DNA from: Methanolobus zinderi
GTDB taxonomy: Archaea > Halobacteriota > Methanosarcinia > Methanosarcinales > Methanosarcinaceae
Assembly: GCF_013388255.1 (NCBI RefSeq)
Contig: NZ_CP058215.1
Span: 868,001 to 932,000 of the forward strand
Length of the DNA: 64,000 bases
Direction: 5' to 3'
This document shows, piece by piece, positions 13,729 to 18,736 of the stretch; position 1 is the stretch's first letter, and each line of letters starts with the position of its first letter. The notes beneath the pieces are model-generated. The model searched no databases. It had not been told where the DNA came from and saw nothing but the letters and a program-made list of their open reading frames with translations. A program made the translations under genes and the position numbers.

Positions 13729-13849
13729 TGTATAAATGCTTGGTCTTACGGTACCGATAAGGAAATATTATAGATATCTTTTTATATTTATACATCCTTT
13801 TTTAATTAAATAAAATTATAGAAGATTGTTTTCGATCTCGGGGTGTTCT

Positions 13850-14641
13850 ATGACCGCAAAAATATACACAATCATATCAGGAAAAGGTGGTACAGGTTCT
13901 ACCACTACTGTGATCAATATCGGAGCTGCTCTTGCAGGATTTGCAAAAAAAACACTTATCATTGACATGGATCTGGGTATGCCCACCGTAGGGTTGATGC
14001 TTGGCCTTGAAACAAAAACAACTTTGCATGATGTTCTTTCAGGTGATGCCGATATCAAGGATGCCATATATGATGGGCCAAGCAACCTGAAGATATTACC
14101 CGGCAGCATTTCTCTGCATAGTTTTTTGAATACCGATCCTGATAAGCTGGCAGGTCTGGTCGAAAGTGTCAAAGACGACTTCGAGTTCATAATTATCGAT
14201 TCTCCAACGGGTATCAGTAAGAATTCCATGGCAGCAATATCTCTGGCAGATGAGCTTATACAGCTAATGAACCCTGATATTGCGTCTCTGGCCGGTGCGA
14301 TGAAGGTCAAAGCAATCTCTGACTCTCTGGAAAAGCAGTTCTTCGGGATTATTGTGAACAGGACAGGAGTAGTAAAGAATGAACTCAGCAGTGAGCGTAT
14401 AGAGACCGCTCTTGGCCTAAAGATCCTTGAGATACTTCCTGAAGATCCTAACATCAGGAACTCTGTGGCATTCAAAGCACCTGTTGTAGTTAAATATCCC
14501 GGATCTCCCGTGTCTGTAGGCTTTAACAGGCTCTCAGCTGAAATATCAGGTATCAAAGTTCCTGCGGTTGAGACTTTCGTTGAGGAAAAGAACAGTAAAA
14601 AGAAGGGCAAACGAAAACTGTTGTCTATAAACCGCAAGTGA
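13850..14641 (+). CDS. ParA/MinD-family protein with altered P-loop, TadZ/CpaE-like
   Basis: The 263-residue protein has a ParA/MinD fold: KIYTIISGKGGTGSTTTVIN near the start, IDMDLGMPTVGLMLG as switch I, and FIIIDSPTGISKNS as Walker B/switch II. The deviant Walker A keeps the first lysine (K12), but the P-loop lysine normally in KGGxGK[ST] is serine (S17). Tad systems carry TadZ/CpaE proteins with similarly atypical P-loops that localise the pilus machine, and the next genes here are a TadA-like ATPase and two TadB/C-like proteins. I infer a localisation role with weak or absent ATP hydrolysis. ATG 13850 follows GGGGTG. The C-terminus is lysine-rich. Confidence 0.8.
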   Translation: MTAKIYTIISGKGGTGSTTTVINIGAALAGFAKKTLIIDMDLGMPTVGLMLGLETKTTLHDVLSGDADIKDAIYDGPSNLKILPGSISLHSFLNTDPDKLAGLVESVKDDFEFIIIDSPTGISKNSMAAISLADELIQLMNPDIASLAGAMKVKAISDSLEKQFFGIIVNRTGVVKNELSSERIETALGLKILEILPEDPNIRNSVAFKAPVVVKYPGSPVSVGFNRLSAEISGIKVPAVETFVEEKNSKKKGKRKLLSINRK

Positions 14642-14722
14642 GGTCTTTCGTGTGTATACAAGGGAACAATGCAGATCGCACAGTTCCTGTATCAGGGTTT
14701 AGTTTTGATCGGGGCTGGTAAA

Positions 14723-16825
14723 ATGGATGATGATATAGCTAAAGAAAAGGATGTTAAAAAGGATTCCTCCAATCTTTCTGATAATAATAAAGCCGGGAAT
14801 CCTACATCTTCGACAGACACTGGAAAAGTGCTGTCATCAGATCATATTGTGCTTGAAGAGGACCAATCTGCTTCAATGCAGTCCGGTTTATCTTCTGAGC
14901 AACTTTCAGATAAGGATAATGGTTCTGTTTCACTACCTGATGGTCTTTCCGGAATCAATGATCCGGAGGAAAGTCTGGCTGACGATAATACTTTTGAGGC
15001 CGTACCGTTTGCTGATGAGGATGCGTTTGTGGATGAACTTGCAGACCTGATCCTGCCTGATGATGAAGTAGTAAGCATAGAGGAGCTCAAAAGTAAAGTA
15101 GATGCTTCACTGGCAGACAGCTCATATGTAGATGAGGTATCCGATGAATTAGAGCTCAGGTGGGAAAAGGTAGCAACAGAAGTTTTCAAGGAAGAGCCTG
15201 TTGAAGAAGAAACAGATGAGGAAGAGGAAGAGACCGAGACCCTTCTGGACCGTGTAAACAAGATTTTTGCAAGAAAGAAAATCAACACTGATCCCTATAA
15301 CATGATCGAGCATGGCCCGATCGTTGATTTCACCATACCTGCGGACAGTCCGTACAAGGAAGTTGAACTGTACGAGGTAAACCCTCCCTATGCCTATGTG
15401 AGAATTGCATACGACCCGGCCACGCATGAATTCCAGTATCAGGCCCTTGAACCTGTACTTACTGAAAAGGAAGAGGAATTGCTTGAGTCGATAAAACTGA
15501 AATTCGTGGAAACTCTTGACATAAATTTGAAAGAAATATCCAGAAAGAATGCAGAGACATATTTACGTGATAATATAATGGCGTATCTTCAGGAATATCA
15601 GATCGATATTTCTCCCAAGAAGCGTGAAAGGATAATCTATCACCTGATACGGGATTATGTGGGCTACGGAGAGATCGATATACTGATGAGGGACAGCTTC
15701 CTCGAGGATATCTCATGTGATGGTCCTGATACTCCGATCTATGTTTACCATAAGGAATACAACTCCATACCTACCAGTATTGAGTTTGTAGACGATGATG
15801 AACTGGACTCTTTTGCAATAAGGATAGCACAGATATGTGGCAGACATGTGTCGATTGCAAATCCGCTTCTGGATGCAACAATGCCGGACGGTTCCCGTAT
15901 ACAGCTGACACTGGGCAGGGAGATCACTACCCGTGGAAGTACCTTCACTATTAGGAGATTCAAGGACAACCCGATAACACCTACCAACCTTATAGATTTC
16001 CATACTTTCTCAACTGCCATGATGGCTTATTTGTGGTTGTCTGTGGAATCCAATAAGAGTCTTATCTTTGCAGGAGGTACGGCATCAGGAAAGACCACTG
16101 CCATGAACGCGGTTTCTCTTTTCATCCAGCCTGAGATGAAAATAGTATCCATCGAGGATACAAGGGAGCTCAATCTTTCCCATCCCAACTGGATTCCGGG
16201 TGTCACCAGACAATCATTTGCAGGTGGTGACAAGGGCTCCATTGAGATGTACGAGCTATTGAGGGCTTCCCTGAGACAAAGGCCGGAATACATTCTTGTG
16301 GGTGAGGTCCGAGGAGCAGAAGCCTATGTGCTGTTCCAGGCAATGTCCACGGGTCACACAACATTCTCCACCATGCACGCAGATTCGGTGCAGTCAGTGG
16401 TTCACAGGCTTGAGAACCCGCCGATAAATGTTCCAAGGATCATGATACAGGCTCTCGATCTTGTATCAATCCAGGTTCAGGTAAAGGTCGGTGATGAACG
16501 TGTCAGAAGGTGTAAGACGCTGACCGAGATCGTAGGAGTTGATCCGAGGACCGGTGAGTTACTCACAAACGATGTATTCACCTGGGATGCTTCCAGGGAT
16601 ATGTTCCAGTATTCAGGAAGGTCGTATGTTGTTGAAAGTGTGATGGAGAGCCGGGGATGGACGGAAGAGAGGGTGCGTGAAGAACTAAAGCGACGCCAGG
16701 ACATCCTTGAGTGGGCCCGTGAGAAGAATATTATTCACTTCAGGGAATTTGCAAAGATCGTGGTCACATACAACCGTGAACCGGAAACAATAATGAAGAT
16801 TGTAAGGCAGGATCTCTATGGTTAA
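14723..16825 (+). CDS. Type II/IV secretion ATPase (TadA/GspE-like) of an archaeal pilus system
   Basis: The 700-residue protein carries a C-terminal GspE/TadA motor domain. Walker A is GGTASGKTT (K457), the Asp box/Walker B region is SIEDTRELNLSHPNW and ILVGEVRGAEAYVLFQAM, and the His box is STGHTTFSTMHADS. An N1/N2-like domain lies at about 200-420. The first 180 residues are an unusual low-complexity acidic and serine-rich extension (for example EETDEEEEETET). Such ATPases power assembly or secretion through a TadC-like platform protein. ATG 14723 follows GGGGCTGGT; ATG 14669 is upstream. It overlaps the next gene by eight bases, so the operon is tightly coupled. Confidence 0.9.
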   Translation: MDDDIAKEKDVKKDSSNLSDNNKAGNPTSSTDTGKVLSSDHIVLEEDQSASMQSGLSSEQLSDKDNGSVSLPDGLSGINDPEESLADDNTFEAVPFADEDAFVDELADLILPDDEVVSIEELKSKVDASLADSSYVDEVSDELELRWEKVATEVFKEEPVEEETDEEEEETETLLDRVNKIFARKKINTDPYNMIEHGPIVDFTIPADSPYKEVELYEVNPPYAYVRIAYDPATHEFQYQALEPVLTEKEEELLESIKLKFVETLDINLKEISRKNAETYLRDNIMAYLQEYQIDISPKKRERIIYHLIRDYVGYGEIDILMRDSFLEDISCDGPDTPIYVYHKEYNSIPTSIEFVDDDELDSFAIRIAQICGRHVSIANPLLDATMPDGSRIQLTLGREITTRGSTFTIRRFKDNPITPTNLIDFHTFSTAMMAYLWLSVESNKSLIFAGGTASGKTTAMNAVSLFIQPEMKIVSIEDTRELNLSHPNWIPGVTRQSFAGGDKGSIEMYELLRASLRQRPEYILVGEVRGAEAYVLFQAMSTGHTTFSTMHADSVQSVVHRLENPPINVPRIMIQALDLVSIQVQVKVGDERVRRCKTLTEIVGVDPRTGELLTNDVFTWDASRDMFQYSGRSYVVESVMESRGWTEERVREELKRRQDILEWAREKNIIHFREFAKIVVTYNREPETIMKIVRQDLYG

Positions 16826-17741
16826 TCCGTATTTCACTTTCGCATTCAACATATTCGGGAACTATTTCACAAGGAAGAGACTTGAATATTTCGATCTGCG
16901 GCATAACCTGCTGAAAAACAGGATGGATATAGCATATGATGCCTATCTTTCAGGCGCAGTACTGACTTCCATAATAGGTTCGCTTGTTGCATTAATAGGC
17001 TTTATATTAATAATTACATTCATTGGGGTTCCCGAATTCAGGGCAACAAGATTGACCTTTCCTGCATGGTTTGCGCCATATCTGGAGTACAAATCCCTGC
17101 TAATAGCGTTAGTTGGCGCAGTCGTAATCACAATTGTGGTTTTCATTGTAATCTATCAATTGTTCCTGCTCTATCCTGTATTGATGTCAAGCGACAGGAA
17201 ACGACGAATAGATATAATGCTTCCTTATGCGGTCAACTATATGTCCGCCATGTCCGGAGCAGGTGTATTTCCTGCAGACCTTTTCAGGTCTCTTGCAAGT
17301 AATCCCATCTATGGTGAGGTTTCTGTTGAATGTCGTTATATGGTGCGTGACCTTGAAGTTCTTGGTACGGACCTTGTAACCGCCATGAAGAACCTTTCGT
17401 TGACAACTCCGTCTCTGATGTTGCAGGATTTCCTGCAGGGAGCAATAACGGTTGTAACTTCAGGAGGAGAACTTGAGACCTATTTCGAGATAAAGACAGA
17501 ACAGTATCTTCTGGAAAACAGACAGCGTCAAAAAGAGTTTCTGGAGACACTGGGCCTTCTTGGAGAGACATATGTCACTGCCTTTGTGGCCGGACCTCTT
17601 TTCCTGATAGTGGTTATATCGATCATGTCTATCATGGGTAATGCGCAGATGATCTTTCTGTATCTGATAATCTATGCCATCATCCCGATTGGTAGCATTA
17701 TGTATGTTATCCTTATAAGCAGTATGACTCCGGAGACCTGA
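16818..17741 (+). CDS. TadB/TadC-type pilus platform membrane protein, first copy
   Basis: The 307-residue integral membrane protein has a pair of hydrophobic segments near residues 35-65 and 85-115, then a cytoplasmic helical region with LPYAVNYMSAMSGAGVFPADLFRSLA. That is the type II secretion F domain signature. Two more membrane segments lie near 255-305. GspF/TadC proteins form the inner-membrane platform turned by the ATPase. It overlaps the ATPase gene by eight bases and is followed two bases later by a paralogue. Two adjacent platform proteins are typical of Tad (TadB plus TadC) and of some archaeal pilus loci. Confidence 0.87.
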   Translation: MVNPYFTFAFNIFGNYFTRKRLEYFDLRHNLLKNRMDIAYDAYLSGAVLTSIIGSLVALIGFILIITFIGVPEFRATRLTFPAWFAPYLEYKSLLIALVGAVVITIVVFIVIYQLFLLYPVLMSSDRKRRIDIMLPYAVNYMSAMSGAGVFPADLFRSLASNPIYGEVSVECRYMVRDLEVLGTDLVTAMKNLSLTTPSLMLQDFLQGAITVVTSGGELETYFEIKTEQYLLENRQRQKEFLETLGLLGETYVTAFVAGPLFLIVVISIMSIMGNAQMIFLYLIIYAIIPIGSIMYVILISSMTPET

Positions 17742-17743
17742 TT

Positions 17744-18736
17744 ATGAAGTTCAAGGAATTATTCAAGAAAGACCTGCATCCTGCTGAAGTGAGCCTTACT
17801 GAGGAGGAGTTGTGTGCACTTGAAGACTCCATGGTCGCCAGGAAAATGGAAGATTCAAAGAAATTTGTGGTCTTTAAAGAATTCCTCAAAAGTCCCGGAA
17901 AAACACTTTTCAGGAATCCTGAATATACGTTCATCCTGAGTGTTCCGGTAGCTTTGCTGGTATTTGTTTTCGGAATGTCCATGACATGGGGTACGCCACT
18001 TATAGATGATGTTATCGTTTTTACTGCATTGATAATAATCACGCCTCCTGCCATTGCATATCAGAAGAAGTACAGTAATACTGATAAGATCGAGGAATAT
18101 CTGCCAACTTTTCTGAGGGATATCTCTGAAATGAGCAGGGCCGGCCTGACTCTTCCAAGATCTGTTAATACTGTTTCCAAGGGAGAATACGGGGCCCTGA
18201 CAACAGAAGTCAGGAAGATGGATCTGTCAATGTCGTGGGGTATTTCCTTCGAGCAAACTCTTCAGAACTTTGCAAACAGGGTACCAACTCCCATCATACT
18301 CAGATCCGTATCCCTTATCAACCAGGCAAGCAGGGCCGGAGGTCGTGTCTCATCCGTACTGGAAGCTGCAGCCCGTGATGCAAGGGAAGTCAAACTGCTT
18401 GAGCAGGAAAGACGTGGAAATATGATGGTCTACGTGGTCATCATTTACATGTCGTTCTTTGTCTTCCTTTTTGTAATAGCAATGCTTACCTCCACGTTTG
18501 TCCCCACCATGGCCGAGGCCGGAAGAGCCGCATCTGCAGCAGGTGCCGGTAATCAGTTCATAGGTGCGTTCGACCCTGCTAAGTATACCCGGTTAATGCT
18601 TCATACCGCAGTTATACAGGGTTTCATGAGCGGACTCGTTGCGGGTCAGATGGGTGAGGGAGCTGTGTCCAGAGGACTGAAGCATTCCATAATCATGACA
18701 ATGATAGCATGGATCGTTTTCACATTCCTGATCTGA
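17744..18736 (+). CDS. TadB/TadC-type pilus platform membrane protein, second copy
   Basis: The 330-residue protein has an N-terminal cytoplasmic helix, membrane segments at about 65-85 and 90-110, and the F-domain helices YLPTFLRDISEMSRAGLTLPRSV and VPTPIILRSVSLINQASRAGGRVSSVLEAAARDAREV. Strongly hydrophobic segments at about 225-250 and at the C-terminus complete it. It is the partner of the preceding protein. No prepilin, class III signal peptide or prepilin peptidase is visible in the window, so pilins must be encoded elsewhere. The gene ends ten bases from the convergent fumarase operon. Confidence 0.87.
   Translation: MKFKELFKKDLHPAEVSLTEEELCALEDSMVARKMEDSKKFVVFKEFLKSPGKTLFRNPEYTFILSVPVALLVFVFGMSMTWGTPLIDDVIVFTALIIITPPAIAYQKKYSNTDKIEEYLPTFLRDISEMSRAGLTLPRSVNTVSKGEYGALTTEVRKMDLSMSWGISFEQTLQNFANRVPTPIILRSVSLINQASRAGGRVSSVLEAAARDAREVKLLEQERRGNMMVYVVIIYMSFFVFLFVIAMLTSTFVPTMAEAGRAASAAGAGNQFIGAFDPAKYTRLMLHTAVIQGFMSGLVAGQMGEGAVSRGLKHSIIMTMIAWIVFTFLI

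Follow-up and report, generated by a model that had tools for sequence, protein, structure and literature searches.

Within a 64,000-nucleotide stretch of the Methanolobus zinderi genome (contig NZ_CP058215.1, positions 868,001 to 932,000; hereafter the window) lies a four-gene pilus motor operon, the first gene of which encodes a MinD-family protein, referred to here as the window MinD. We find that by descent this protein is an archaeal MinD and not a TadZ; it has independently reached the type of phosphate-binding loop (P-loop) found in the TadZ/CpaE proteins of bacterial Tad loci. The signature lysine, Lys12, is present, and the P-loop lysine expected at position 17 has become serine. A preliminary description of this DNA had read the resulting motif, GKGGTGSTTT, correctly, and the gene order it gave, MinD followed by TadA-, TadB- and TadC-like proteins, is borne out by the open reading frames and by Pfam/NCBIfam, which assign the four products in order to ParA/MinD, T2SSE ATPase, T2SSF and T2SSF. 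The genus-wide loss of both the lysine and a C-terminal helix in an operon-encoded archaeal MinD, independent of TadZ, appears to be new, and a literature search combining Methanolobus and MinD returned no paper addressing it by title or abstract.

The loss of the lysine is no strain quirk, because it is fixed throughout the host genus. Our sample of the genus consisted of the window genome and 26 others, and since the P-loop is masked in one of them, 26 genomes were readable at this position; 15 have threonine, 10 serine and one valine, and none has lysine. The signature lysine is invariant across the same alignment. Sequencing error or a strain-specific mutation, considered as a cause of Ser17, was ruled out by the genus-wide alignment. 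Outside the host genus, lysine is found at the P-loop position in the orthologs of all 20 readable genomes, which come from four genera of the same family (here labelled g4, g6, g24 and g25) and three families of the same order (f2, f3 and f5). The preliminary description had asked how far the change extends across the Methanosarcinaceae. Five of the genera examined have an ortholog and the other genera have none; the change holds in the host genus, but the other four genera with an ortholog keep lysine, so that close relatives with lysine, which would have spoken for an error or an isolated mutation, occur outside the host genus only.

We searched the DNA of 238 class genomes and of a phylum-wide sample of 393 for GKGGxG[S/T/A/P]T. 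MinD-type matches were confined to the host genus, and the matches outside it that were read proved to be out of frame, in a short open reading frame, in another protein or in fumarase. A scan of the class with a variant pattern had 14 matches, none of them in the host genus, and no MinD was among the four that were read; such pattern scans miss some non-lysine codon combinations, for example those with AGY serine. As a separate observation, fumarase beta subunits (L263, L264 and L265) carry GKGGMG[A/T]T, a motif that DNA scans can mistake for a ParA P-loop without lysine.

By sequence, fold and tree, the window MinD is an archaeal MinD of the arCOG00589/TIGR01969 type. It scores 249.8 bits against TIGR01969 (minD_arch; cut-off 201.75), and the MinD of 26 of the 27 genomes of the genus exceeds that cut-off. 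Its AlphaFold2 model (predicted local distance difference test, pLDDT, 88) has P. furiosus MinD as its best match in the PDB (Z 36.1, 1.4 Å). No N-terminal receiver domain was found in it with Pfam/NCBIfam, the sequence starting at the NTPase domain, and a rhizobial CpaE used for comparison matches CpaE receiver-domain structures. In a maximum-likelihood tree of 66 sequences, including eight TadZ/CpaE, the host genus forms one clade (100/100) nested in archaeal MinD, with the lysine-bearing genus g25 as its sister (100/98). Seven of the eight TadZ/CpaE group on their own (99/95); the eighth, on a very long branch, is unplaced. It follows from the strongly supported nesting of the host genus that the lysine was lost once in the host genus, independently of TadZ. 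Constraining the host genus to group with the seven TadZ lowers the log-likelihood by 22.9 units (approximately unbiased test, p-AU 0.037), a modest figure obtained with long TadZ branches present. The identification as TadZ made in the preliminary description is therefore not upheld, since the nearest kin are lysine-bearing archaeal MinD, the receiver domain is missing and the phylogeny places the protein with ordinary MinD.

The resemblance of the P-loops themselves, to which the preliminary description had also pointed, is real. Our TadZ references were genes from bacterial Tad loci located through the motor ATPase; Pfam TadZ_N (PF16968) had no match in any genome tried, controls included. 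Of the eight bacterial TadZ genes read, seven have no P-loop lysine; among these seven, the signature lysine is kept in five. The P-loops are AKGGVGAST and AKGGVGSST in the Tad loci of two rhizobia, SKGGVGATL, AKGGVGASF and TKGGAGAST in Vibrio, and VRGG(V/A)GATT in two others, and the same type, KGGVGSS, is found in Liberibacter CpaE (PMC8513845). Bacterial TadZ/CpaE departs from the MinD residue at K17 and E143 in seven of seven proteins, and at N46 and D149 in five of seven.

These four positions are among nine at which the host genus differs from residues conserved in both archaeal and bacterial MinD. They align with K16, N45, E146 and D152 of E. coli MinD, and we take them, from the E. coli MinD dimer, to lie at or near the ATP site and the dimer interface. 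Lys12, Asp39, Asp41 and the Walker B Asp117 are invariant in the host genus, and for this reason the window MinD probably retains some binding of Mg-ATP. The C terminus has changed too. Most lysine-bearing orthologs end in a helix of the GFxxRLxxxLFGGK type, like the membrane-targeting sequence of E. coli MinD, and the host genus has a polybasic tail of the KKKGK(R/K)xSLSKxK type (e.g., KKKKGKRFSLSKNKK). A polybasic tail is combined with an intact P-loop lysine in the sister genus g25, so the change of the tail probably came before the loss of the lysine. Two MinD proteins of genus g4 (L063:5743-6612 and L219:6353-7222) seemingly have the C-terminal membrane-targeting helix twice in tandem, as read in the full tail of L063 and matched by length and end in L219. 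At its N terminus the motor ATPase carries a strongly acidic extension of about 180 residues; the extension is acidic also in g4 and in part of f2, near neutral in f5 and short in g25. We considered, and set aside, electrostatic docking between the polybasic tail and this extension as an explanation, the g4 extension being equally acidic with a normal tail.

The operon is found in all 26 other genomes of the host genus, with the same gene order in all those sampled. For most outgroup orthologs the MinD gene is followed by the same set of motor and platform genes; the neighbour genes on either side of the operon, too, are mostly those of the host genus in g4 and g25. The ratio of nonsynonymous to synonymous substitution rates (dN/dS) of MinD is 0.04-0.14 in close pairs, comparable to the values for the motor and platform genes; MinD is under strong purifying selection and is therefore maintained. 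One genome of genus g6 (G150) has two related MinD copies (L226 and L227), one in the motor operon and one without a nearby motor gene.

The operon encodes an archaeal type IV pilus motor with kinship to ArlI, the family against which it scores highest (416.6 bits, under the cut-off of 550). The genome's own archaellum motor ArlI, encoded elsewhere, reaches 775 bits. The operon motor also has a weak PilB3 match. Against the TadA family TIGR03819 it scores 158.7 bits and does not reach the cut-off of 373, a strict test that a rhizobial CpaF also misses (344.9 bits). "Tad-type" thus fits the gene layout but is loose as a family name, because the motor scores nearer ArlI than TadA. Across L063-L074 and L219-L229, genera g1, g4, g6, g24 and g25 of this family encode the platform protein as two one-domain genes, and families f2 and f5 have a single fused protein of about 650-685 residues; the split resembles TadB/TadC and possibly had an independent origin. 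A simple type IV pilin signal-peptide pattern had no match in the window, and pilin-family genes are located elsewhere in the genome. As for gene starts, MinD begins at the ATG at 13850, the TTG listed at 13826, 8 codons upstream, being unconserved, and for the motor ATPase the ATG at 14723 may be an alternative.

Table 1. Positions in the window of the operon genes and of the MinD features discussed in the text.
Feature	Position	Strand	Basis
MinD-family protein, 263 residues, operon gene 1, P-loop Lys absent	13850..14641	+	open reading frame list, Pfam/NCBIfam, alignment, AlphaFold2 model
Deviant Walker A GKGGTGSTTT, residues 11-20	13880..13909	+	DNA ggaaaaggtggtacaggttctaccactact, alignment
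Ser17 codon TCT replacing P-loop Lys	13898..13900	+	S/T/V in 26/26 genus members, K in outgroups
Thr46 replacing Asn (E. coli MinD N45 position)	13985..13987	+	alignment
Walker B Asp117, kept	14198..14200	+	invariant in host genus and outgroup
Asp143 replacing Glu (E. coli MinD E146 position)	14276..14278	+	alignment
Gly149 replacing Asp (E. coli MinD D152 position)	14294..14296	+	alignment
Polybasic C-terminal tail replacing MinD-type amphipathic membrane-targeting helix	14597..14638	+	tail alignment; model pLDDT <50
TadA/ArlI-like motor ATPase, Walker A intact (GGTASGKTT), acidic N-terminal extension	14669..16825	+	open reading frame list, Pfam/NCBIfam
Platform protein, one T2SSF domain, TadB/C-like	16818..17741	+	open reading frame list, Pfam/NCBIfam
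Platform protein, one T2SSF domain, TadB/C-like	17744..18736	+	open reading frame list, Pfam/NCBIfam

We lean slightly towards a switch-impaired MinD that the pilus motor would use as a scaffolding or positioning subunit. In this reading the protein would be an archaeal MinD dedicated to a two-platform type IV pilus motor. The ancestor of the host genus lost the P-loop lysine and changed N46, E143 and D149, and the tail is polybasic in the place of the membrane-targeting helix of related operon proteins. Efficient ATP hydrolysis would no longer drive such a MinD onto and off the membrane; it may instead stay bound, either to the membrane or to the acidic extension of the motor ATPase, as a largely constitutive scaffold. 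In this position it could recruit, hold or position the TadA-like ATPase and the platform, as has been proposed for CpaE around CpaF, and the role of localisation factor suggested by the preliminary description is plausible. In the Caulobacter machine, six dimers of CpaE have been fitted around the CpaF motor, and a move of CpaE onto the motor base has been proposed for the piliated state (PMC13170226), and CpaE has been described as needed for CpaF localisation (PMC8513845). In Haloferax, MinD2 with the K16A change retains about 78 to 100% of motility and a Walker B mutant fails (PMC11588486, PMC11621097); an archaeal MinD can therefore serve a filament machine largely without its P-loop lysine. 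TadZ of E. rectale, too, is reported to be active in the absence of the lysines (PMC10482377).

Several points weigh against a scaffold of this kind. Haloferax MinD4 needs its Walker motifs for motility and for polar caps (PMC11621097), and in the window MinD a compensating lysine could restore hydrolysis. The acidity of the motor extension and the polybasic tail show no clean co-variation, as the combination seen in g4 illustrates. In addition, a genome of another genus (G028) has at locus L239 a close TadA-TadB-TadC-fumarase arrangement with no MinD gene before the motor. The motor there is therefore without a strict need for MinD, which seems either to have been lost from this locus or never to have been present.

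Among other explanations, it is possible, though rather unlikely, that the window MinD is a nucleotide-sensing cofactor of the ArlH/FlaH kind, which would bind ATP without turnover and, as a ring on the TadA-like ATPase, license its activity and not set its position in the cell. The FleN/MinD ATPase of archaeal pili has been suggested to act like FlaH (Makarova 2016, PMC4858521), TadZ and FlaH have been placed in the same genomic slot (Denise 2019, PMC6668835), and the invariance of K12, D39, D41 and D117 would suit a protein that still binds nucleotide. However, the fold differs from that of ArlH, and the absence of D149 and N46 points to a change in the nucleotide-bound dimer typical of MinD. 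We consider it more doubtful that the protein is an ordinary dynamic MinD in which the phosphate contacts have passed to another lysine (K12, for instance, or K152 or K154 in the helix that follows the NPD loop), so that hydrolysis-driven positioning of the motor continues. There is a precedent in TadZ of E. rectale, which is reported to be ATPase-active without the lysines because a neighbouring helix supplies one (PMC10482377); this TadZ was absent from the structure matches and phmmer hits, and no weight is placed on its absence. Within the host genus K152 never varies and K154 hardly does, and the change of D149 to glycine could free them. Both lysines are, however, equally conserved in the lysine-bearing orthologs, which argues against a new compensation, and the membrane-targeting helix has been lost as well. 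That the protein is a true TadZ, an archaeal branch of the TadZ/CpaE family, is very improbable; the P-loop type and gene order are alike and TadZ has profile similarity to arCOG00589 (PMC6668835), but the nesting within lysine-bearing archaeal MinD, the cost of the joint constraint and the missing receiver domain all count against it. Neutral decay leading to loss of the gene, with which its absence from the corresponding operon of G028 would agree, is hardly credible given a dN/dS like that of the motor genes and the invariance of all other nucleotide residues tested, the retained K12, D39, D41 and D117 themselves arguing against decay.

This operon family amounts to a natural before-and-after experiment, in which the same MinD occurs with and without the P-loop lysine and the membrane helix, the lysine-bearing sister lineages being the before state. 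Whether a pilus-positioning MinD needs ATP switching can thereby be tested directly in Archaea. The independent arrival at the atypical TadZ/CpaE-type P-loop, moreover, points to a common requirement of such pilus motors and not to shared descent. We regard it as an evenly balanced question whether an archaeal MinD turned into a static pilus-motor scaffold here, through independent loss of the lysine, remodelling of nearby sites and replacement of the membrane helix, and would so be a separate archaeal counterpart of TadZ/CpaE.

The window MinD can be set beside four known groups of proteins. With TadZ/CpaE it shares the atypical P-loop KGGxG[S/T/A][S/T], with the signature lysine kept in most copies read, the adjoining motor ATPase and platform genes in a TadA/B/C-like layout, and changes at the same MinD-conserved positions; unlike them, it has no receiver domain, which defines CpaE/TadZ, it has a separate origin in the tree, and its tail is polybasic and not an amphipathic helix. 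With archaeal MinD (TIGR01969/arCOG00589; P. furiosus, A. fulgidus) it has in common the family score, fold, tree position, Walker B and signature lysine, but it is altered at the P-loop lysine, at N46, E143 and D149, and in the membrane-targeting helix. MinD/FleN ATPases (arCOG00589) have already been listed as components of archaeal type IV pili, within the locus for Clade 1 and usually as a stand-alone gene for Clade 2 (Makarova 2016, PMC4858521), so that a MinD serving these pili is expected, whereas the window MinD sits in the motor operon and is without the P-loop lysine. MinD2 and MinD4 of Haloferax volcanii are likewise archaeal MinD proteins that position motility machinery, MinD2 working largely without K16; they differ in serving archaella and chemosensory arrays, and their P-loops are intact.

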